NCBI GenBank assembly: GCA_000151295.1
Contig: GG745338.1
Span: 429,334 to 493,333 of the forward strand
Reading direction: 5' to 3'
DNA from: Allomyces macrogynus ATCC 38327
Taxonomy: Eukaryota; Blastocladiomycota; Blastocladiomycetes; Blastocladiales; Blastocladiaceae
DNA length: 64,000 bases
The position numbers and the translations under genes are program-made. The notes beneath the pieces are model-generated. The model searched no databases. It was given only the letters and a program-made list of their open reading frames with translations, and was not told where the DNA came from. Shown here in pieces: positions 13,364 through 46,100 of the stretch (positions within the stretch are counted from its first letter, which is position 1; each line of letters begins with the position of its first letter).

Positions 13364-14441
13364 AAGGAGCGCGTCTGTTGGGCGCGGGGTGGGTTCATGT
13401 TAAGTCTATATAGTACATCCATATGTTTTGCATTTGAATTGAAATGGCGTGGTGGTGGCAGGCTGGGTGGGTCGGTCTGGGACGCTGACGCCCTCATTCT
13501 TGGTTTTTGATTGATATATGGAAGACATGGTCCCTCATCTTGCATTGTCAAGGGTGATCAAATGATCCGATTGGACCAAACGTCATAATACAAACAGTCT
13601 GCTCATGACAGCTGTTCTTGACTAAACAGACGTATTAGGCGGACTGTGGTCTTGACATCTACCAACTTGATGCTGTCTCAAGTTCAAATCTTTTTGGCCA
13701 TGCTTTGGCACATATCAGGTTTATTTATCGCCCAATGCCCCACTTGTGACATGTACAAATCCTACACACAGTGGCCCTGTTCAGTCAATGAAACTTTGCA
13801 GCCAGCTAACAACCACAATGCACGCCAACTGGCACCCACGCATGGCCAGGACTTTGACGTGGACAGGTGTGACATGCTTGGTCGGTGATGCCAGATGCTG
13901 ACAACACTGGGCAACACTGAAAAACCCATACACACATGATTGCAACATGACGCCTTGACCTGTGTGAGCTCCACAGCAGCTGTTGCAGATTATCCGCACC
14001 ATTTTGGACCTCTCCAACTGCATCAGTTCACGGCCACAGTTGATGTAATTACCCCCTTCTCTCTCATTCGACCATTTCTCAGCATCTTGTTTGTTTCATG
14101 TATCAGCAGCACCTTCAACCAGCCATGAGCCATCAATTCAGCAGCACTTGTGTCTGGCTGCTTCCCCTCCTCCACCATCCTGCTTTGATCAACAACAAGG
14201 TGTGCCTGCATTCTGTTCATTTTGAAATGGTCATGGCCCAAACACCAATGCCATGCCCTGGTCATGACTGTCACTGATCATGACACTTTGCTGCTGCTTC
14301 CTTCTCTGCAGGTGTTATGGCAGCAGTTGAACCTGATCGCATAACTTGCTGCACTCGACTCGCCCGCATCTCGCCACCCGTTATTCGATCGCACGCGCCG
14401 ACGCCGATTGCCCAGCTCGTACCTGATGCTCAGCGCCTGAC
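13364..14441. other. Lower-GC spacer without a recognised gene
   Basis: About 1.1 kb that is visibly richer in A and T than its surroundings from about 13385 to 14310. Only short random frames are present. Near 14290-14312 a pyrimidine-rich stretch ending CTCTGCAG looks like a splice acceptor, so a 5'-UTR intron of the next gene is possible. I found no tRNA, LTR or inverted repeat. Confidence 0.5.
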
Positions 14442-17400
14442 ATGCCCGTTGCCGTGCCGCCGCCCCCGGCGCCCGCGCGGCTGCCCAATTCTGCACGACC
14501 GGCATCGCACTCTTCCTCCGTGGCCAAACCTTCTCCACCGCCACGGCCACGCGCGACGACCTCACATGCTGCCGCCGACTCGACCGCAGACTGGACCCCG
14601 TACCTGCGCGCCAACACGTCGCATTCCAGCAGCGTCGCATCTTCGCGGTCGCGCGGCGGCGGAAGCGTCTCGGCAATGTCGCTGCACGGTGATGGTGGAG
14701 CATCGGCGTTGTCGCTGCCCGACACGGTCATTTCGTCGACGAGTTTGTTGCCGGACAACGCGGCACTACATCATTTGCTCAACTTGACGGCCACCGACGA
14801 TGGGTATTCGGTGACAGAGTCGGGCACGACGTCGGACAGCGCGTCGGCCGTCCAGTTTACCACGCGGTCCGTGTACGGCGGCGATAGCCGGTCCGCGACG
14901 CCCATCGCTCCACCCTCCACCATCCCCGCTCCCGCCGCTCCCGCCGCTCCCGCTCTCGCAGCCGCACCTGCCGACGAGGATAGCGACCACGGAGCCTGGC
15001 GGCAAGTTCCGGCCGTATTGCGCGAGACGGTCAAGCAGATTCTCGTCGCCGCATTGCAGCAGAATGCCGCCGCATTGACTTGCACGCCACCGCGGCTCGC
15101 CGACCGCGACCCGTCCGCGATCGACGCGCGGCTCGCCAGTGTCGAAGACGCGCACTCGCAACTCGCGCACGACCACGGCCGACTGCGCGCGGCGCACGAC
15201 GCGTTGCAGGCGACGCATACGCGTGTTCTCACCGAGTACGAGCACCTGCGCGCGCGGCACGACGAGACGCTGCGCCGGGTGGACGTTGTGCAGGCGCAGC
15301 ACGCGCAGGAGATGGCTGAACACGAGCAGCGGTATGACAAGGCCATGCACAGGTTTGACGCGCTCCAGGCGATGCACGACTTGGTGCTCGAGCGATTGCA
15401 TGTTGTGGAAACGTGCCACGACACCGAGACGCAGGATGGACGGCAAGTGGAAGCGATGCGCGGCCAGCTTGACGATCTACGGTCACAGCACGACGCGCTC
15501 GATTCGAAATACCAGCAACTTTGCACCAAGCACGAGGATTTGAGCACCAAGCACGAGCAGCTCGGCGCCGACTTTGCCGTAGCGCGCGCAGGCCAAACGA
15601 CTTTGCACAAGAGCCACGAGGCACTTTGCGGCGACGTGGATGCAGTTCAAGAGGATATGGCCGTGTTGCGCAAGGAGAACGACTCCCTCCGCGACGACGT
15701 GGGGACAATTCAGTCAGACGTTCCCGCACTTCGCAAGGAATTTAACACACTGCGCGCCGACATGGACGCAGTCCAGGCCGAGACCACCGCGTTCCGCCAG
15801 GAGCAGGATGTTCTGCGCGCCGACGTTGACGCGGTCCACGCGGGTACCGCTGCGTTGCGCAAGAGGCACGACGCCCTTCGCGTGGACGTTGTGGCCCAAT
15901 TTCAAGAATCCAGATCGCGACGACCCGAGCGTCCCGACTTGCATGCCACCGACTTCGAACGGCTCGACCGGCACGCCGCGTCCACGACAGCCGAAGTCGC
16001 TGACCTTGCGGCCCGCGTCGCGAGTCTCGATGTGGTCGTCGAGTCCCTCGCGGCCAAGGCGCTCTTCCTCGAAGCGCGGCTCGCCGAGTCCACGTCCCGC
16101 CCACCGTCCCCAACCCCGTCCCCTGCACCCGCAGTAACCTCCACTTCCACACCAAGACCCATTCCACCCGAAACGGTCACCCTGCCCGTCGACGAATGGC
16201 ACGCGCACCTCGTCGACGTGCGCAACGCCATTTTCCGCGACCTGCACCGCACGCTGCTTGCTGAGATCCGCGCGCCCGCCGCGCCGCCCGCGCCGCCGCC
16301 CATGCTCGCACTCGACCCGGACTCGTCGCAGGAACCGCTCGTGCGGCGGCTCGACGTGGAGCTGCTCGTCGAGGCGCGAGTTGATGAGCTGGTCCCGCAG
16401 CTCGACCAGGTCGCGGCGCGCACAGCCGACGCGGAACTCGCGATCCAGGACTTAACCGAGGCCGTCACGCAAATGCACGAGCGCATGGCGCTTGCGAGCG
16501 ACGTCGCGCAACTGCGCGCGGTCGTGCAGGTCGTGCATGCGGCGACGGCCGAGGTGAAGGCGAACATCGAAACCAAGGTTCGTGGAGTGTTCGATATGCG
16601 GCGTTTCGATGCGCCGCTAACGTGCTTCTACTTCCCGTAGCTTGCGCAAAGCGCCACCGAGCAAGACTGCCGCGCGCGGCACGACCAAGCGGCTGACTAC
16701 GGCCGGGACCTTGCTGACCACGTCCGTGCCGTCGCCGACTCGCTCGCGTCACTCCAGGCGCAGGTGGGCGAGGCCGACGCGCGCGTTACCGCATCGCTGA
16801 CCGCGAAACTCGATTCGGCCGCGCTCGACGAGCTCTTGCGGCACGTGGCCACGCGCGACGACATGAAAAAGTACCTCGAAAAGAAGTGGGCCGTGCTAAG
16901 CCGGCACTTGGTCCAGAATGAGGTGGTCCCGCTCGTCGTTGCGCACGCGCGGAATAATGCACCGGACGTGGCCGCGCAGCAGCAGCAGCAGATGCAGCAA
17001 CAACAGCAGATTCTCCAGCAGCAACAAGAGCAATGGTGGGCGCGCACGACCGCGCGCGTGGATGCGGCCGAGGCCACTGTCGCGGCCGTCCAAGACGTGG
17101 TACGGCGGGTCGGAGACGACGTGCGCGCCGTTGTCGAGCAGCTCGAACTGCACCAAGAGCAGCATAGACCCGCCGGGTCCAGCACGCTCACCCCGTCCCC
17201 GTCGCGACGTGTTGACGACGTCGACACCGACGCGCTTTCTCAACCGGGGTTCCAGCTCGACGCCGAGTCGTACGACATTCTGCACCACAAGCTCGCGTCG
17301 ACCATGGACGAGAAGCTCTTCCTACTGGCCTCGGAAATGTCGGCCATCCGCGCCGCGCAGGCGCACCTCGCGACCACGTTGGCGTGGCGCACGGCCATGT

Positions 17401-17816
17401 GGCTGTGGAAGACCGGCACGCTCAAGCACGGGTCGGCGATCCCGTGGACCGTCGAGGCGCAGAACACGGACACGACCAATTTCGTCTGGGAGCCCGGGCA
17501 CGCTGTCGTGCGCGTCGCCGAGGCTGGCGTCTATGAGCTGGCGTTTGCCTTCTTCACCAAGTGCAAGCCGTCGATCCAGGTCGTTGTGAATGGCGAGTCG
17601 GTCATGTCGGCGATCCATTCGCCGACCTACACTGTGCACCATGGTTCCGGGTACGTGACCGACGGCGACACGGGACGCACGCACGCGGGCGCCGTCACGG
17701 GCATGTCGTTGCACGATTATTTGGCGTTGCCAGCCAAGTCCACCGTGTGCCTCCACTGGCACGGAAAAGTGGACCACGCGGTCGAGGGGTTTATGACGCT
17801 GCGCAGGCTCAACTGA
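14442..17816 (+). CDS. Large coiled-coil protein with a C-terminal C1q/TNF-like domain
   Basis: Two exons, 14442-16577 and 16641-17816 (intron GTTCGT...TAG), give 1103 residues. Residues 1-200 are Pro/Ser/Ala-rich. From about 230 to 560 there are long coiled coils with a repeated register (HDALQATH, HDALDSKYQQL, KHEDLSTKHEQL, then units such as LRADMDAVQAETTAFRQEQD and LRADVDAVHAGTAALRK). A Pro-rich linker near 570-600, a second coiled coil, a Gln-rich block (QQQQQMQQQQQ) and another coiled region follow. The last ~130 residues form a compact beta-rich region: GHAVVRVAEAGVYELAFAFF, IQVVVNGESVMSAIHS, GMSLHDYLALPAKSTVCL, and the ending EGFMTLRRLN. This looks like a C1q/TNF jelly roll (GxYxxxF core, NGxxV, C-terminal GFxxLxxL). 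The domain call is by pattern only. No signal peptide or membrane segment, so it is probably cytoplasmic or cytoskeletal. Confidence 0.75.
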
Positions 17817-18247
17817 ACTGACTTCGGGGGGGAGGGACTCGAAAGTGTCAAGTAATCGCGCAGAGACGGTGTGGAGATGAATAGACTGGGTTGCATCTCA
17901 CGGGTGTGGATGGTGTTTTCGTTCGGTCTCGTCTTGCCGGCCAGCAATGGACCACATATGAGGCGAAGCTGCGAGTCTGCCATTCGCAATGAAGTGAAGA
18001 TAATGCTGTGGGCCTGCAAAAGAGCAAAACAACACGACGAAGAGCGACTCAAGATTGAAGGACTGACGGATTGCTTTTGAGAAAGTTCATGCGACGAGCA
18101 AGTGGTTGAAGAAGCACATGAGAAATGCGCCCAGATAACCATTGCATTGGATGCGACAGCATTGGATGCGACACAACACAACGACAGCATCTTGCGCCAA
18201 CCCCACACCGCAACAGCCCTCCAAATCGCACGGCATCCCAACGACGT
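17817..18247. other. Convergent spacer
   Basis: About 430 bp between the coiled-coil/C1q-like gene (+) and the end of RPS13 (-). It holds both 3' UTRs. A 17-bp near-repeat (GCATTGGATGCGACAGCATT) occurs near 18142-18172; nothing else is recognisable. Confidence 0.5.
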
Positions 18248-19662
18248 TTACAGACCAACAAGGGCGGCGGCGTTCGACGACTCGCTGTGAGGAAAAAGAG
18301 CGCAAACAAGGTCAGTCTTTGCGTCTGCGGCCGACAGGAGCACCCCACGCGAATGCACTTCCATCCACAAGAAGCAGTTCGGACGGAGGCGACCAGCGCC
18401 AGAGTCAACCAACGAGCACCGAGTCGGACATCGTCCACGCTGGTTGCGTCGCGGCCGGCAAGGAGCACGGCTCACAAGCGCACCAAAACCCGAATGCTGT
18501 CGGAGCGCGACCATCGCGAACCCCATGAGATGCCGATCCGACAATGGGACCTGGCGGGGAACGGAGACGCATCCAAGTCCGAGGACACGCGCGCGCAAGC
18601 GCAACGTGCCCGTCATTCCTGCGCAGTAGAGAGGAGAAAGATCGGGCATCAAAACCCACACGCCGAACGGCGTCTTGCGGCACGGAAACGGAAAATCGCG
18701 ATCGAGATCTTGGGCAAAACGAAAGTTGCACGTACTACTTCCACGTCGGCGGCAGCTGACCGGCCGTCTTGTAGTAGCGAGCGAGACGGTGGATACGCGA
18801 CTCGATCAGAATCAGGCGGAACTTGGAGTCACGGTCCTTGCGGTGGCGCTCCATGTGCTTGCGGACCGAGACGGCCTTCTTGATCAGGTGGTAGAGGTCC
18901 TCCGGGATCTCGGGGGCGAGACCTGCGCGATGCCGAAACAGGAGCGAGTCAGCAAAAACTGCTCGCAAGCACCGAGACCATGCGTGCGCGCGTGCGTGCG
19001 AGCGAGAGAGAAAGATCGCGAGCGGGTTTCGGGCAGCGGAGAGCAAAAATCAGAGGGAAACCGAAAAATGACGATCACGTTCGAGAACACGAGCGCGCGG
19101 GAATTGCCAGCCGTTTGCGAGAAACAGCGAATCAGATGAAGTTACTATCGTCCTGGAGGTCGCCTTGGATACACCGAGACTAAGGATCAGAAACACGGAC
19201 CAAATTGTGTATGATTTTCATCATCACGCAATCCGGCGACGCCACACTCCGTCTGTGCTTCGTCATGTCCCCTCCGATATTTGCTTCCCCGCTCAAAAAA
19301 TCCCAAAATCCCGCTTGTTTCGTGCACAATGGCAGCAGAGTCTTCTGGACCTCGAAAGTCGCGGCGTTGCACGCACGCGCGCACGAGCATCGCATGGTGC
19401 AAAAAGCACCGGGAATGCGAGCCGTACCGTTCGACTTGAGGATACGCAGGACCTTGTTACCGGTGATGGTCTTGACCTGCGGGACACCCTGCGAGTCGCG
19501 GAGCGTGACACCAATCTGCGACGGGGTCATGCCCTTCTTGGCGAGCTTGCAGATCGACTCGACGACCTTGGCGGGCGTGGCCTTGCACCAGGCCGGGGGC
19601 GTGCGGCGGTAGGGCAGGGCCGAGGCCGAGATACCCTTGCCAGGAGCGTGCATGCGACCCAT
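18248..19662 (-). CDS. RPS13: 40S ribosomal protein uS15 (RPS13)
   Basis: Small-subunit ribosomal protein binding helix 22 of 18S rRNA. Three exons, 19662-19428, 18922-18736 and 18284-18248, give 152 residues (family about 151). Exon 1 encodes [20 protein letters not shown] through LRILKSNG. Exon 2 runs from [20 protein letters not shown] to GQLPPTWK. The tiny last exon (37 nt) supplies [12 protein letters not shown], matching the conserved C-terminus YESSTASALV; without it an in-frame TAG would end the protein after TWK. The introns are unusually long for this window, 505 nt (18923-19427, GTACGG...CAG) and 451 nt (18285-18735, GTACGT...CAG). The first contains a snoRNA. It is divergent from the Mid1-like gene, 440 bp away. 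Confidence 0.95.
19127..19229 (-). ncRNA. snR18: C/D-box snoRNA, U18-like (LSU rRNA 2'-O-methylation guide)
   Basis: Lies inside intron 1 of RPS13 on the same strand, the usual place for an intron-encoded box C/D RNA. Read on the minus strand there is a C box ATGATGA (19224-19218, overlapping GTGATGA), a D' box CTGA (19190-19187) and a D box CTGA (19135-19132). A short GCG/CGC terminal pairing (19229-19227 with 19129-19127) brackets them. The bases just before D' (TTGGTCCGTGTTTC, complement of 19190-19203) are a perfect 14-nt antisense to the universally conserved LSU rRNA sequence GAAACACGGACCAA. The residue pairing with the fifth base upstream of D' is the A of AAACACGG, which by position corresponds to the A649 site of yeast 25S rRNA guided by U18. 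The guide before the D box is unassigned. Gene ends are approximate. Confidence 0.82.
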
Positions 19663-20101
19663 GTTTGAAAGTTGTTGGGGGTTACGACGGCGGGGGCAAA
19701 GTCGATGAACCGGGAAGAGGGAGAGCAGATAGGTGGGCACGGCCGTACATCCGTTGTGGCCAGTCGGCCAACACTGGACTGTGCAGTTGCAGGGAGTGTG
19801 CGGTGGAGACTAGTCACATGGAATCGATGCCAAATCTGTCAACGCGCTTGTACCGCACGCCGCCGTTGGCCTCCCGCACCACGCCACCACCAACTTCATC
19901 GTACATCGGCGCCGCGCTTCACACCATCACCAGCTGCACCCACGAGCACGGCGGCTAGACGACGCACAACTTGCGGCAGCAGCGTACCACGCTCAAATGC
20001 GCCGCAGCTCGACCGCGAAACCGATTTCCAACGAGATCACCATGCCGTGTCCACCACCTGCAAGGAGCCGCAGACCAAGCACTACAAGCAGGCGCCTCGC
20101 A
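19663..20101. other. Divergent spacer RPS13 / Mid1-like gene
   Basis: 440 bp that should contain both promoters. Nothing beyond pyrimidine-rich stretches is recognisable. Confidence 0.45.
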
Positions 20102-20962
20102 ATGCATACCGCCACGACCCTGGTCCTCGCCGCCCTCGTCGTGGTCCTCTCCACCACCGCGTTTCTGCCGCCAGTCTCCGCCGCCCGGCCCGCACACTGT
20201 GCCCAAGTGCCCGGCCCGCTCAGCTTCTGCTCATCGCAATCCGGGAAATACGTGGCCTTCCCCGCCGTCTCGGGTCCCGGCACCAACGCGACGCTGCGCG
20301 CCTACGCGCTCTCCACCGACGCCTACGCGCGCGCGGTCCACGGCAATTGGACGCTGGCCCTGCGCGCCGTCGACTGCCGCGACGACCCCGTGCAGCGGTT
20401 CAGTCTGTTCCGCACGTGCGCCGACTGCGCAACCGCCTACCACGAATGGCTCTGCGCGACGCTCTTCCCGGAATGCGTCGACCCGGAAACCGACCCGCCG
20501 CTCGTCTGGGACCCAAACAACCCAACCGCCGACGCGCACAACGCGTCGAAGCCGCTCGTGCACGTGCGTGCTGTCGAAGACGCCTCGAGTATGCGTGCCG
20601 CGGCCCTCGGTTACCTGGCGACAGCTAACCTGACGGCCATGGCCGCGAAAGACGAAATCTCCGGCGCGGCGCCCGTTGGGGGGATTGCAGAGCTGGAAGC
20701 CGCGCACGCAGTTCTCGCCAAGGCTGATACGAAAGTGCCTGAGTTCCCGTTCCGGCCGCCGTGCATCGACGTGTGCTACAAGGTCGTCACGGATTGTCCG
20801 GCGACGCTCGGGTTTGCATGCCCGCGCGTCAAGGGGCTCGTCACGCCGCATCTCGAGCAGGTGCAAGGGGTTAGCGATCCGACGGCGTGGGCCGGGTACT
20901 GGGCGCTCGTCGCCAACGTGTTCCCGGACTACGACGTCATGTGCAACCCGACGGTGCCGTAA
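20102..20962 (+). CDS. Secreted Cys-rich protein resembling Mid1/FAM155 calcium-channel subunits
   Basis: Single exon, 286 residues. Residues 1-27 (MHTATTLVLAALVVVLSTTA, then FLPPVSA) form a good signal peptide with cleavage expected near VSA|A. The mature part is Cys-rich. It has two blocks typical of the Mid1/FAM155 (NALF) family: CADCATAYHEWLCATLFPEC in the middle and PPCIDVCYKVVTDCPATLGF|ACP near the end. Several N-glycosylation sequons are present (NAT, NWT, NAS, NLT). In fungi Mid1 partners the Cch1 channel in calcium uptake. This protein is short for Mid1 (usually over 500 residues) and has no clear transmembrane helix or GPI signal, so it may be a minimal paralogue or a secreted Frizzled-like Cys-rich protein. 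The ATG at 20102 starts the signal peptide; an upstream in-frame ATG at 19997 would bury it. Confidence 0.65.
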   Translation: MHTATTLVLAALVVVLSTTAFLPPVSAARPAHCAQVPGPLSFCSSQSGKYVAFPAVSGPGTNATLRAYALSTDAYARAVHGNWTLALRAVDCRDDPVQRFSLFRTCADCATAYHEWLCATLFPECVDPETDPPLVWDPNNPTADAHNASKPLVHVRAVEDASSMRAAALGYLATANLTAMAAKDEISGAAPVGGIAELEAAHAVLAKADTKVPEFPFRPPCIDVCYKVVTDCPATLGFACPRVKGLVTPHLEQVQGVSDPTAWAGYWALVANVFPDYDVMCNPTVP

Positions 20963-21286
20963 CGCTGCGTGGTTGGTGAGTGGGTGGAGAAGCGGCATGG
21001 CAGTTCTGGCAATCAATCCATGTGCGAGTTGTGCATTTCGCTCGTGTGTTTTGAGGTTCGGTCTTGAGGTTTTGACTTTTAGTCTTGAGGTTTTGGCCAG
21101 AGCCACAGCCAGGGTTCCGAGGTTTTGGCTCCCCTCAGTCATCTGACTGACCGGGTTTGCAGTCCCAGAAATTGACCGTCCTGTCGCGCCCGTCGCCGCC
21201 CAACTTCACACCCATCGACCCCCGCCGTGACCGCGCCGGCTCGCCTGTTTCTCGACCGCCAACTTGCCGCATCTCTGCCGTCCGCC
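20963..21286. other. Short spacer with GAGGTTTTG repeats
   Basis: 324 bp between two same-strand genes. Between about 21048 and 21130 the motif TTGAGGTTTTG or a variant occurs four times. This is probably simple-sequence drift in the 3' UTR or promoter of the homeobox gene. Confidence 0.5.
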
Positions 21287-22384
21287 ATGGAGGTCCGCGC
21301 GCGCATCGCGCGGCACGCGCTGTTCCCGCTCGTCACGGAAATGACCGTCTACCGGCACCGCGCGTCGGTCGCGACCTCGACGACCGAAATGCAAAAGATT
21401 CTCGCCGGTGTCTCCGACTCGGTCGAGCGCCATTTCGCCGACCACGGCGGCGACAAGCCCGGCGCCGTCCCGCCCGCGCCGAACCCGGTCCCGCCGCCGC
21501 CCATGGTCATGTTCCTCGACACGCTGTCGGACACGCAAATCGACCACTTGGTGCGGTCGGCTGTCGTCATTCTCATCTCGCACATTCTCGAGTTCCACGA
21601 ACATGTCGAGGCGCTCGAGGCCGTGTTTGAAGGCGTGCTCGTGCGGGCCGCGAATGAGTTTAATGCCCTGATTGGTGGGGCGTCAATGCTCGGCGGTGGA
21701 GTCGTCGCCGGTAACCATCCGTCGGCCGCGATGACCGCCGGCGGGCTCGGCGGGAAGCGGTCGATGATCGACGAGCCGCCGGGGCCCGACGGGCAGAAGA
21801 AGCGCGCCAAGCGCACGAATCACCGGCCCGAGGTCACGGAGCTGCTGCGCAATTGGGTCACCAAACACGTACGCTTTGTTGCTGTCTCTGATCCATCCTG
21901 TCCACATGTCTCACTCGCTGATCACCTCCACCCGAGCCAGGAAAACCACCCGTACCCGGACGAAGAGCAAAAGAAGCTGCTCTGCGAGCTGACCAAGCTC
22001 TCGCGCGAGCAGCTCGACCACTGGTTCATCAACGCGCGCCGTCGGTTCCTCAAGGACACCAAGGCCGCGCGCGAGGGCAACCCGAAAGTGCTAAAGTATA
22101 GAGCCGGCAAGGGCGCACGCGCGCGCAAGTCGACCACCGCCGCCGCTGCTGCGACACCGGCTGACCCGGCGGCGGCGGCAGCAGCGGTGGGAACCCCGGA
22201 GGCCGACGTGTCTGGCATGCCGCTGCCGCCGCCCATGGCACCCGCGGCGGTCGCTGACGGGACGGCCGTTGGTGCTCAGCTGCAGCTTGAAATGGCGTCG
22301 CCGCTGATGGCGAGCGCGGGACCAGACCCGCAGGGCGGTGCGGGTGAGCCGATGGACCAGGACCCGCCTGGGCGTGTGCAGTGA
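21287..22384 (+). CDS. TALE-class homeodomain transcription factor
   Basis: Two exons, 21287-21868 and 21941-22384, give 341 residues. The 72-nt intron (GTACGC...CAG) is a multiple of three without a stop, so it also reads through; removing it restores the homeodomain. After a basic stretch (KKRAKRTNHRP, from residue 171) helix 1 is PEVTELLRNWVTKH. The TALE loop is ENHPYPDEEQKK, helix 2 is LLCELTKLSREQ, and the recognition helix is LDHWFINARRRFLK. The WFxNxRRR core and the three-residue loop extension define the KN/TALE class (Meis/Pbx/Cup9/Tos8-like; fungal mating-type HD1 proteins also belong here). The N-terminal 150 residues are helical, the C-terminus Ala/Pro-rich. No target or mating role can be assigned from the sequence; no HD2 partner lies nearby. 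Confidence 0.88.
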   Translation: MEVRARIARHALFPLVTEMTVYRHRASVATSTTEMQKILAGVSDSVERHFADHGGDKPGAVPPAPNPVPPPPMVMFLDTLSDTQIDHLVRSAVVILISHILEFHEHVEALEAVFEGVLVRAANEFNALIGGASMLGGGVVAGNHPSAAMTAGGLGGKRSMIDEPPGPDGQKKRAKRTNHRPEVTELLRNWVTKHVRFVAVSDPSCPHVSLADHLHPSQENHPYPDEEQKKLLCELTKLSREQLDHWFINARRRFLKDTKAAREGNPKVLKYRAGKGARARKSTTAAAAATPADPAAAAAAVGTPEADVSGMPLPPPMAPAAVADGTAVGAQLQLEMASPLMASAGPDPQGGAGEPMDQDPPGRVQ

Positions 22385-22577
22385 TGGGGCTTGTTTGTGA
22401 TGCCGGCGTGTTGTCGTGTATTTATTTTCGCGAGCCTGGTGGGCCGTGGCCATGCAACAAATCATCTTTCTCGTTGTGATCGGTCTGTTTCTATCTTGAC
22501 CTGCCGAAGAATGGATCCATCAAGCACCCATGCGGCCATGCCCGCAACCAAAATCCCCCCTCCTCCCGCGTTTCCAT

Positions 22578-23988
22578 TCATTGACAACTGAAAACCCGCA
22601 GCGACTTATCATCCGCGACCGTCGCCAGCCGCGTGCCGGCCTCATTATAAGCCACCCCCCACACCTGGTCCTGGTGATGGTCGAGCGTGTGCAGGCACTG
22701 CTTGGCGCGAATGTCCCAGACCTTGACGCGCTTATCCGAGGACCCGGATGCGATATGGTCGACGGCGCCCGCGCCCACGTTCGACGTGGACCCGCCCGCC
22801 GGAGACCACGCGACCGATAGGACCCACGACGCGTGGCCCGCGAGTGCGGCGACCTGGGACCCGTGGTGCACGTCGTACATGTGCACGCGCTTGTCGTCCG
22901 ACGCGGAGACAAGGAATCGACCGTCCGGCGAGAAGGACAGGGAGCGGACGGACATGGCGTGGCCTGGCGTGGGGAAGGATAGGTCAGAGTGGTGATCCGA
23001 AACCGCAAAAGAGGGCGGCGGTCTTGAACGCACCGCTCAATGTCGACACGAGCCGGCCCGTGGTCGTGTCGAAGACGTGGATCGCGCCGTTTTCGGCTCC
23101 GCTCGCCAAGTAGTTGCCCTGCTGCGACTGCACACCGTGCCGAGGCCGTTAGACCCCGGTCGACCACGATCGGTTTTCAAAAAATCAAACCGTACGTAAG
23201 CGAGTGACATGATGAACTTGCCCTTGGTCTCGAGCACCTGCACACGCTCGCCCGACTCGGTGTTGTAGATGTGCACGTTGCCCGCGTGCGTGCCCGTGGC
23301 TACGTGCGGCCCATGTGGGTCGCAGGCGACAGTCCACACCTCAACTAGAGTCCAACGCCAAAAGTGAATCAGTTTGGACGGTGTCAGACAATGCCCACGG
23401 TTCGCCGTCCGCGTACCGGGTTCACCCTCAATCGTCTTGACGTGCGTCTTGTCGTCCATGTTCCAGATCTTGATTCGACTGTCGAGCGAGCTCGAGACAG
23501 CGTCTACCACCCGCAGATCGTGAGCAACCGCGGCAACACGCACAAGCAGCTGGAATGGCGCGTACACCGGCCGGTCAAGTCCGTGGCGACCGAGATCACG
23601 CCGAGTTCGTGGCCGTGGAACGTGTGCAGGGGCTCGAGTCCGCCTTCCGCGTTCCTAGCATCGCAGAGAGCTCAGCGACCGAGCTGGTGCGGCGTCCAAA
23701 TTTGAAGGGCACGGACCAGATTTTGACGGCGTTGTCGACGGATCCCGTCACGAGGCGGCCACCGCGGCCCCATGCGACGCCCCAGATGCCGTCCTCGTGG
23801 GCTATACATGGGTCCTGATCAGTCTTGGGCCGAGTGGGACGGGCTGTAGCGGCTCAACATGGTGCACCATTGTCAATGGCGCCGACCGACGTGTACTGGT
23901 CGTGATGAGGTAGGTGTTGATTACATCGTCAGTGGATCTGCGCGAAAATGTTGATTCCATTCCGAGCTGTGGTATCGTGCGCTACCAT
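22578..23988 (-). CDS. SKI8: WD40-repeat protein Ski8/WDR61
   Basis: Seven-bladed WD40 scaffold of the cytoplasmic Ski complex (mRNA decay with the exosome); in animals also a PAF1-complex subunit. Pieces read on the minus strand are AHEDGIWGVAWG and LVTGSVDNAVKIWS (exon ending 23801 upward), FHGHELGVIS, SSSLDSRIKIWNMDDKTHVK, VATGTHAGNVHIYNTESGER, GKFIMSLAY, YLASGAENGAIHVFDTTTG, and the last exon HAMSVRSLSFSPDGRFLVSA through DHHQDQVWGVAYNEAGTRLA to the stop at 22578. These match WDR61 blade by blade. At least six introns are needed. Those at 23802-23867, near 23345-23430, near 23125-23195 and near 22965-23035 are clear; the junctions at 23530-23690 are not resolved. The start at 23988 (ATG immediately followed by an intron) is tentative. 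Confidence 0.82.
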
Positions 23989-24584
23989 GATGCTGGAATG
24001 TGGTGATCAACTCGATAGGGTCGCAGCGGGTCGGTTTCGCGTCCAAGTTGCCCAAGCCGCCGGGTACAGCTGGGCAGGGTTGGTTTGCAATAAGTCGCGC
24101 TGAGGTCGGCGTGCTGTTCCTCGCTGCAAACTGGTGTTCGACGGCGACAGCGTCTGTGCGGTGGATGGTAGCCGAGCACGGCGTGCGAGGTGCGGTGCTC
24201 ATGAGCTATCGACGTGGTGCGCGTGACACGCGCCAGGTCGTCTCTCTCGCTGTCGCGTCTCGCACAAGCGTTAAACATTTTCCATTCCCCGCCGCGTTCT
24301 CTCCGCGTACGTTTGGTGCTGCAGCAAACGTCGACCCGGCCACACTCGCTGCAGCCGGCCACCCGTCACTTGCAGCAAACGATCCCAGTGACCAAGTTTG
24401 CCTCGTGTGCCCGCATCTGCTGCGACTGATCGCGCGCCGACGACCGTGCTCGCGCGTCGCCCTTGAGCCTTCCTCTCCATCCAAGCCCAGCTCCGCCTTC
24501 GCGTCCTTCCACGGCCAACGCCTAACCCCTTCCCCGATCAAGTCCTCCCCACCCGCGCACCAACTTCTTCAACCCTCCCTCGCC
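23989..24584. other. Divergent spacer SKI8 / unknown helical gene
   Basis: About 600 bp between divergent genes. An open frame continues upstream from the downstream gene to 24000, but its translation has no conserved or compositional sign of coding. I treat it as promoter and 5' UTR. Confidence 0.5.
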
Positions 24585-43135: not shown

Positions 43136-46100
43136 CTACTGCAGCGACCGCAACACCGTCGCCGTCGGCTTGCCGGCCTTGACGCCCGACAGCACCTGCA
43201 CGCCCGGCGTCTGCGCCCGATACTCGCGCCACTTGACGACCGCGTCCGCGTCCTCGCGCAAGTCCTCGGCGCGTTCCCACGTCGACTCCTTGATCGCGCG
43301 CTGCTGCCACTTGATCAAGTACAGCGTGTCGCCCTCGCCGCGCCGGCCCGTCATGCCTTCGCGCAGCACGCACTCGGGCTCGTCGGCCGTCGCCGGTGCC
43401 CATCCGTGCTCGTCGTCGGTGCCGTCGTTGCCCGCGTACGGCCGACCCGGAAATCGTGCCAAGTCCGGCTCGCGATACGGTTTCAGCAGCTCGACGTGGA
43501 ACGTCGGGTGCACCTTGTACCCGGCTGGCAATCCGAGCCTGCACGCGCGACCGCCACCGACCACGGCCTCGACGTTAAACGGGCCAATGAACTTGGGCAG
43601 TAACTTACGCGACGTCAGCTCCGTGCCTGATGCTGTGCGCGCCGCAATGTTCTTGGTCGAGAGCCACACGCGGTCGCCGACGAGGTACTCGACGTGCTTG
43701 CGGTGCCGGTTGACTTGCATCACCATGGCCGCGCGCGATCGATCCAGGCTCACCCGAGCATCTCGCGTCGCTGCGTCGAGCTGCTCCGCCATGCGCTCGA
43801 GCTGCGGTACCGGGATATTGTTGCCGAGCATGATCTCGACCGGCCCGCGCGGCACAACGCCCCACAGCTCGAATGGCGACTTGCCCGTCGGCTCGGCGCG
43901 CGAGTTGTTGTAGGCGAACTCGACAAACGGCAGGTATGTTGGCCAGTTGGTGCGCTGCGCGTTGACGAAATGCCGCAGCATCGACTGCACCGTGCGATTC
44001 GCGACTTCGGCCTGGCCGTCAGACTGTGGATGATACGCTGTCGACATCGCTAACCGCGTGCCCAACCGCCGCCAAAGCGCTTCCCAAAACGCAGATGCGA
44101 ACCGCGGGTCACGGTCGCTCACGATGCAGTCGGGCAAGCCAAAATCGGGCAAGACGTACCGAATGTACAAGCGCGCAAGCCCTTCGGCGTCCGTCGTCAT
44201 GACCGTCGGGATCACGCGCAACCGCTTCGTCAACGCGCACACGAGCGTGACGATGGCGTCTTTTCCGCCCTCCCCGTCTGGAAGCTTGCCGATCAGGTCG
44301 ATGTTGATTCGGCCCCACGGCCGATCCGGTACAGGAAGCGGTCGCAGCAGGCCGTCAGTCTTGCCGATCTTGGGTTTGTTGGCCTGGCAGCTCACGCACG
44401 TCCGCACATAGGCCTCGACGTCGGCCGCCATGCCACGCCAGTAGCACCACCGACGCAGCAGGTCGAGCGTGCGACGCGCGCCCATGTGCCCGGCGAGCGG
44501 CGTGTCGTGGGCCTCGGACAGCCACAAGGTGCGCAGCTCGCGGTCGTTTGGGATGAGCGGCACCCGCCGCGCCTCGCCACTGACCTCCACGAACTTGAAC
44601 AGGATCCCGTCGTCGGCGACGTACCCCGCGGGCGGCTGCTCGAGCATCGCGTGCAACCGTCGATCCGCCGCCGTCGCGGCCACGACGCGCCGCATCATGT
44701 CTGGCTCGACTTCTGGTCGAACCCCTTGCACGAGATCCTCGGCGGGCTCTTGCGCGTGCTCGCCCTCGACCGCAATCGCCACGGTCTCGTCGTGCTTGTG
44801 CGACCGCCGTACCTGCAGTACCGCGAATTTCCCGTCCTCGCCTTTGTATAATGGCACCGCCGCGACGCGCAACGCACCGTTGGCACCGCGCGCGAGTGGT
44901 GTGTACAGCGCGTCGGCAAGCAGCGACCCGTCCGGTCGCAAGTCCGGCCGTCGCGACAGCGCGTCAGCGTGCGGCATGCGCTCGCCCTTCTCGTACTTGA
45001 TTTCCAGATCGTACTCGGCGAGCGACGACAGCCACCGCACTTGCCGTCCATTGAGCTCGCGCTGCGTCGCAAAGTACTCAAGCGTGCGGTGGTCCGAGTT
45101 GCACCGCACCGACTTGCCGTGCACGTACGTGCGCCACCGATTCAACGCGGCGACGATTGCCAGTAACTCGCGGTCGTGGACCGGGTACGCGCGTTCCGGT
45201 GGCTTCAACTTGCGACTGAAATATTCGATCGGTCGCCCATTCTGCTGTAGCACCGCGCCGACGGCGAACCCGCTCGCGTCGGTCGTGATCTCGAAATCGC
45301 CGTCCTCGTCAGGCAGCACCAGCACCGGCGCCGACGACAGCGCGTCCTTGAGCGCGCGGAACGCTGCGTCGGCCGCGGCTGACCATTCGTACGTGACGTC
45401 GTCGGCGAGCAAGTCCGTCAGCGGGTGCGCGAGCTCGGCGAATCCATTGACAAATCGCGCGTAGTAGTTGGCGAGCCCGATGAACCCGCGCAACTCCTTC
45501 TGGTCCTTGGGCACGGGCCAATCGCGCACTGCCGCGACCTTGGCTGGGTCGACATGCACGCCGTCGCGGTCCACGAAATGACCAAGGTACTCGACCCGCT
45601 CCTTGAAAAACTCGCACTTGCTCGGCTTGACATGGAACTCGTTCTTGCGTAGCACCTCGAGCACCTGCCGAACGTGGCGCTCATGCTCAGCCTTGGTCTT
45701 CGAGTAGATCAAGATGTCGTCGAGGAACACGACGACGAACCGGTCGAGGTACGGCTCAAACACCTGGTTCATGGCGCGCATGAACGTCGATGGTGCGTTG
45801 CACAAGCCGAAGCTGAGCACGCGCCACTCGAACGTCCCGTACCGCGTCACGAACGCCGTCTTGTGCACGTCCGACTCGTCCATGCGCACTTGGTGATACC
45901 CGCTGACAAGGTCGAGCTTCGTGTAGTAGCGCGCGCCACGCAGCATCCGGAAGAGGGTCTCGGCGCGCGGCAGCGGGTATGTATCACGTACCGTGATCTT
46001 GTTCAGTGCGCGATAATCCACGCACACCCGGACGCCTCCGTCTTTCTTTGGCACGAACAGGACCGGCGACGCAAACGGCGAGCCCTTGCTCGGCCGGATC

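Follow-up and report, generated by a model that had tools for sequence, protein, structure and literature searches.

The closest described relatives of the RNA reported here are the U18 snoRNAs, among which we take snR18 to belong. Counterparts directed to the same large-subunit (LSU) rRNA site are given for Dictyostelium (CD24/Am844), yeast, human, and Arabidopsis (U18) (PMC8817022), for Neurospora (CD46A and B/Am635) (PMC2780460), and, by the listing of the chicken RNAs, for chicken U18 (PMC2653536). For Me-Eh-LSU-A785, the U18 homologue of Entamoeba histolytica, the published target is the counterpart of yeast A649 and human A1313 (PMC3542256). According to these and related sources, snR18 lies in EFB1 in Candida (PMC2926782), chicken U18 occupies introns 2, 5, and 6 of RPL4 (PMC2653536), the Entamoeba gene lies between genes (PMC3542256), and every C/D gene of Dictyostelium except CD38 is intergenic (PMC8817022). 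The human RPS13 gene is described as the host of a different box C/D snoRNA, U14 (PMC5831926), and chicken U14, with 18S C423 as its target, is placed in introns of HSPA8 (PMC2653536). An initial annotation of the DNA analysed here had stated that the RPS13 introns of animals host U14, which is borne out for human and not for all animals. More generally, Hoeppner and Poole reported snoRNAs in 22 positionally equivalent introns, with no homology across supergroups (PMC3511168).

The locus compared here with these systems belongs to Allomyces macrogynus and lies within a window, the whole stretch of DNA that was analysed, of 64,000 nucleotides. The coding part of its RPS13 (uS15) gene occupies 18735..19662 on the minus strand, with exon 1 at 19662-19428, an intron at 19427-18923, and exon 2 at 18922-18735, and joining the two exons yields a 423-nt coding sequence for a 140-aa RPS13 protein. 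The protein contains the domains PF08069 (Ribosomal_S13_N, 103 bits) and PF00312 (Ribosomal_S15, 52.2 bits), and is matched by 57 distinct sequences of solved structures. Its best three relatives among the 120 listed (5707 found) come from Blastocladiella (92% identity), Catenaria (91%), and Sorochytrium (89%), all of which we take to be Blastocladiomycota. The 505-nt intron (18923..19427, minus strand) is of the GT..AG type, with boundaries AACG/GTACGG and GCGCAG/GTCTCG, and contains a branch-like CTGAC whose A lies 26 nt from the intron 3′ end. It is the sole intron within the coding region, and in that sense the first intron of the gene, where the snoRNA had initially been placed. The intron had also been called longer than most here, which is only roughly supported: in a crude scan of the window that gave 34 candidate introns and is to be read as rough only, 505 nt exceeds a tight cluster at 66-92 nt (n = 11), but falls within a scattered tail at 221-693 nt (n = 23) that is probably mostly spurious.

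Within this intron lies a U18-type box C/D snoRNA of 103 nt (19127..19229), encoded on the minus strand as is RPS13. Its distance to the 5′ splice site is 198 nt and that to the 3′ splice site 204 nt; the latter gap was counted against the U18-type reading. The layout is GCG-UG-AUGAUGA ... CUGA (D′) ... CUGA (D)-UU-CGC, in which the 5′ arm of the terminal stem (GCG, 19227..19229) is followed by the C box AUGAUGA (19218..19224), the D′ guide (19190..19203), the D′ box CUGA (19187..19190), the D box CUGA (19132..19135), and the 3′ arm of the stem (CGC, 19127..19129), all on the minus strand. A C box of the form RUGAUGA near the 5′ end and a D box CUGA near the 3′ end, which mark the box C/D class, are both present, and the coordinates, the order of boxes C, D′, and D, and the short end stem are all as initially annotated. 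The terminal stem comprises only three base pairs (GCG/CGC), the same in both genomic copies of the RNA, and its shortness was also counted against the U18-type reading; some intronic C/D RNAs reportedly lack a terminal stem, as the title of a paper by Darzacq and Kiss of 2000 is said to indicate. The folding of the region 19125-19232 is no better than that of shuffled sequences (z +1.47; 185 of 200 shuffles equal or better), a result that causes no surprise for a C/D RNA.

Just 3′ of the D box, the minus strand at 19121-19131 reads UUCGCUGUUUC, one mismatch from UUCGCAGUUUC, an element of U14. The second copy has one further change within this stretch, and the likeness to the U14 element is probably due to chance.

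The best candidate for a C′ box, AGGACGA (19148..19154, minus strand), agrees at 5/7 positions with the consensus RUGAUGA, as quoted from PMC5389607, and has both GA pairs. It is degenerate, which was counted against the U18-type reading as well, and as a C′ box it is weak and may be a chance resemblance; the C′ box of yeast U18 is described as likewise off consensus (PMC5389607). A candidate chosen by eye, ACGAUAG, agrees at only 4/7 positions and was displaced by AGGACGA after a full check.

The D′ guide is a perfect 14-nt antisense to the LSU rRNA segment GAAACACGGACCAA. Its last base (the 14-mer runs from 19203 to 19190) is the C of the D′ box, so that 13 nt lie strictly upstream of D′ and the complement said to abut D′ in fact overlaps it by this one base. 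Counting five base pairs from D′ leads to the A of GAAAC[A]CGG. U18 is recognized by a D′ guide complementary to LSU GAAACACGGACC that places D′+5 at the equivalent of yeast A649; such a guide is present here, and the initially proposed methylation site, derived by the D′+5 rule, stands as a prediction read on the rRNA of other eukaryotes.

The LSU rRNA of Allomyces itself was not found in the assembly, in which a 1001-base LSU piece matched only one 43-nt fragment (C40:151814-151856, 95% identical), the only LSU-like DNA found with it, and the target was therefore checked only on the rRNA genes of other eukaryotes. To obtain these, contigs of bacterial and archaeal genomes were scanned for the site plus its downstream neighbours, which gave seven contigs filed as bacterial MAGs (L008-L014). 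The 14-nt match is present in 7/7 of these rDNA-bearing contigs, a count that holds by construction, since the contigs were picked by a pattern including the site. The two of the seven given to Rfam (L011 and L012) contain eukaryotic SSU, 5.8S, and LSU, and 6/7 contigs also contain an SSU marker word. The L011 rDNA contains three group I introns. In viral contigs scanned for the LSU and U18 patterns, neither was found. The 14-mer occurs nowhere in the Allomyces assembly other than at the two snoRNA loci.

The rarity of such an antisense element was estimated from 20000 dinucleotide shuffles of the intron, scored by rRNA antisense of 14 nt adjoining CTGA. The target was the 5748 nt of SSU, 5.8S, and LSU of L011, bounded by Rfam and with the inner group I introns included. 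Only 2/20000 shuffled introns equalled the 14-nt antisense with CTGA, and none of the 20000 had a longer one. UCGGUG (19177-19172) was also weighed as an accessory guide that would pair upstream of the target, but is not claimed as one: it forms the best helix in 2/7 contigs, and across the seven contigs 93 to 338 of 500 shuffles equal it.

When the intron is compared with Rfam, SNORD18 (RF00093, clan CL00047) is the top family, with 24.6 bits and an E value of 0.028 in 551 nt against a gathering cut-off of 41 bits; the second copy likewise has SNORD18 as its top family (24.2 bits, below 41), and SNORD18 was not listed at the snoRNA locus in two whole-window Rfam scans. The family model proposed as a check of the U18 identity comes first in rank and falls short in score, and used alone it would miss this snoRNA, which is consequently not filed as a member of RF00093 and is called U18-type by its guide, boxes, and target. 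Several features are shared: SNORD18 is of the same box C/D class and has a single D′ guide directed to this LSU site, its members in Candida, Neurospora, and chicken are intronic as here, and the 16-nt segment UGGUCCGUGUUUCUGA, comprising the guide minus its outermost base together with D′, is shared by the Allomyces snoRNA and the SNORD18 consensus. The same segment is identical in Me-Eh-LSU-A785 of Entamoeba (PMC3542256), whose C box AUGAUGA and D box CUGA also agree with those of Allomyces, whereas the Entamoeba RNA is 62 rather than 103 nt long, is intergenic, and differs in the outermost guide base, with the remainder hardly alignable.

No match to the U14 family was obtained: RF00016 (U14) is not listed among the Rfam matches of the intron at E values up to 5, and the guide is that of U18. 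The U14 (SNORD14) of human RPS13 introns shares with it the host gene and the C/D class and is a different guide RNA, related to the Allomyces snoRNA only through that class.

The strongest evidence for the snoRNA is the selective conservation of its block between two copies of the locus. A second RPS13 copy is located on contig C72, in a collinear inverted segment (window 14338-24044 versus C72:340000-349900; 84-85% DNA identity) that aligns in pieces of 6.0 and 3.6 kb with 85.2% and 83.9% identity; this inverted second copy suggests a duplicated or hybrid genome, and such a copy pair is useful for spotting constrained non-coding blocks. The RPS13 coding sequences differ at 6/423 bases (417/423 identical) and 1/140 residues, and exon 1, the first base of its ATG left out, is identical at 230/234 positions. 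The second intron is 517 nt long. In a global alignment the snoRNA block is identical at 102/103 positions, its sole difference being at base 67, outside boxes and guides, whereas the intron flanks are identical at 167/200 columns before the snoRNA (83.5%) and at 156/211 columns after it (73.9%). Outside the snoRNA, none of the 207 intron windows of 103 columns exceeds 93 identical columns, and inside the intron the snoRNA block alone is nearly unchanged. A block at 102/103 between flanks at 74-84% therefore indicates constraint on the block.

Over an alignment of 6317 columns, only four stretches have at least 102/103 identical columns: 19719-19517 (part of RPS13 exon 1 and the leader), 18936-18754 (most of RPS13 exon 2), 19231-19123 (the snoRNA plus a few bases), and 20059-19949. 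The last of these spans 111 bp on the upstream side of RPS13, close to where a neighbouring plus-strand reading frame begins, and has no listed Rfam match in the whole-window scans.

With the gene structure, the boxes, the antisense element, and the selective conservation of the two copies directly observed, the prediction of an intron-hosted U18-type guide for 2′-O-methylation is supported, and the locus is very probably, to judge from its sequence, a U18-type box C/D snoRNA gene in the single coding intron of a blastoclad RPS13. The U18-like identity initially proposed thus remains the best reading, carried by the boxes, the antisense element, the presence of UGGUCCGUGUUUCUGA in Entamoeba U18, and the conservation of the copies, with the Rfam cut-off not reached.

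Three other explanations deserve consideration. The main role of the RNA might be exerted through the D guide or on a non-rRNA target, with the U18 guide secondary, as the D-box guide region is the same in both copies, while the seven eukaryotic rDNA contigs offer it no convincing rRNA partner. No perfect rRNA match of at least 9 nt was found for the D-side guide in these contigs, and the best second target, a 14-nt pairing that includes one inner mismatch and four G-U pairs, occurs in one contig only and is unconvincing. However, the constraint on this region may be structural, and Neurospora U18 appears in its listing with a D′ target only (PMC2780460), a precedent for a targetless D guide; we regard this explanation as very unlikely. 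Slightly less credit is given to a decayed U18 copy, an intronic pseudogene with the working U18 elsewhere. The low Rfam score, the degenerate C′ box, and the short stem would all suit such a relic, but the near identity of the block amid diverged flanks speaks for constraint. Moreover, the 15-nt guide and D′ box GGTCCGTGTTTMTGA has exact matches in the 54-Mb assembly at the two RPS13 loci only, and therefore no second exact U18 resides in another host, although a divergent one may. Least likely of all, with hardly any weight, is a conserved splicing or autoregulation element of RPS13 resembling a C/D snoRNA by chance: ribosomal-protein genes are a class with known intronic regulation and the block lies in mid-intron of one, but antisense adjoining a D box was matched by only two of the shuffled introns and falls at the known U18 site, and the conserved intronic stretch coincides with the snoRNA plus a few bases.

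For the U18-type guide, the following pathway may be envisaged. The RPS13 pre-mRNA would be transcribed and spliced, the lariat debranched, and the intron trimmed by exonucleases to the C/D-bound core. In an RNP with Snu13/15.5K, Nop56, Nop58, and fibrillarin, the D′ guide would pair with the LSU rRNA, and fibrillarin would methylate the 2′-O of the A in GAAAC[A]CGG, corresponding to yeast A649 and human A1313. Deletion of DBR1 in Fusarium is reported to lower a putative intronic U18 significantly while its lariat accumulates (PMC9606315), and by analogy the Allomyces RNA may be expected to be freed from the spliced intron and to guide fibrillarin. The D′ box of yeast U18 is AUGA, in contrast to the CUGA of the Allomyces RNA, and yeast U18 is described as modifying two neighbouring bases (PMC5389607). 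When the D′ box of an artificial guide RNA carrying the yeast U18 C′/D′ motif was altered from AUGA to CUGA, methylation fell at +6 and stayed the same at +5 (PMC5389607). Because the Allomyces D′ box is the canonical CUGA, Am at +5 is expected to dominate as the main site, with the neighbouring base (+6) methylated less than in yeast, and with this natural CUGA the yeast finding that box D′ bears on single versus double methylation could be tested in a simple way.

The kind of snoRNA is ordinary, and the host gene alone is somewhat unusual. Locations in EFB1, in RPL4, between genes, and now in RPS13 indicate that hosts of U18 vary, RPS13 being a further host of a guide known from the other sites, which fits the published view of old snoRNA families in shifting genomic places (PMC3511168). 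No report of U18 in RPS13 was found in the literature searched; a survey of fungal snoRNAomes (Canzler et al. 2018), outside that search, may list a blastoclad U18. The chances are about even that RPS13 was taken as host independently, by U14 in human and by U18 in blastoclad fungi, two opisthokont lines. If so, RPS13 would be a favoured landing site for snoRNAs, perhaps through expression matching ribosome assembly, and within the fungi U18 would have moved from one host to another, the two being RPS13 and EFB1. Elsewhere in the genome, U14 was not found: the best match to RF00016 reached only 21.5 bits (E value 2.05, below cut-off), and two U14 patterns also had no match. With the same genome-wide family search, fungal U3 was missed at E ≤ 1 and U18 itself went unlisted at E ≤ 0.001; the search is insensitive here, and nothing is therefore concluded on U14.

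With this locus, the known occurrences of U18, an rRNA methylation guide that is widely retained, extend to a deep-branching fungus, and the locus provides an example of a U18 overlooked by the Rfam cut-off. Elsewhere in the window, on the plus strand at 44891-44947, there is a match resembling the Twister-P5 ribozyme (28.0 bits, below the cut-off of 37.6; E value 0.086).
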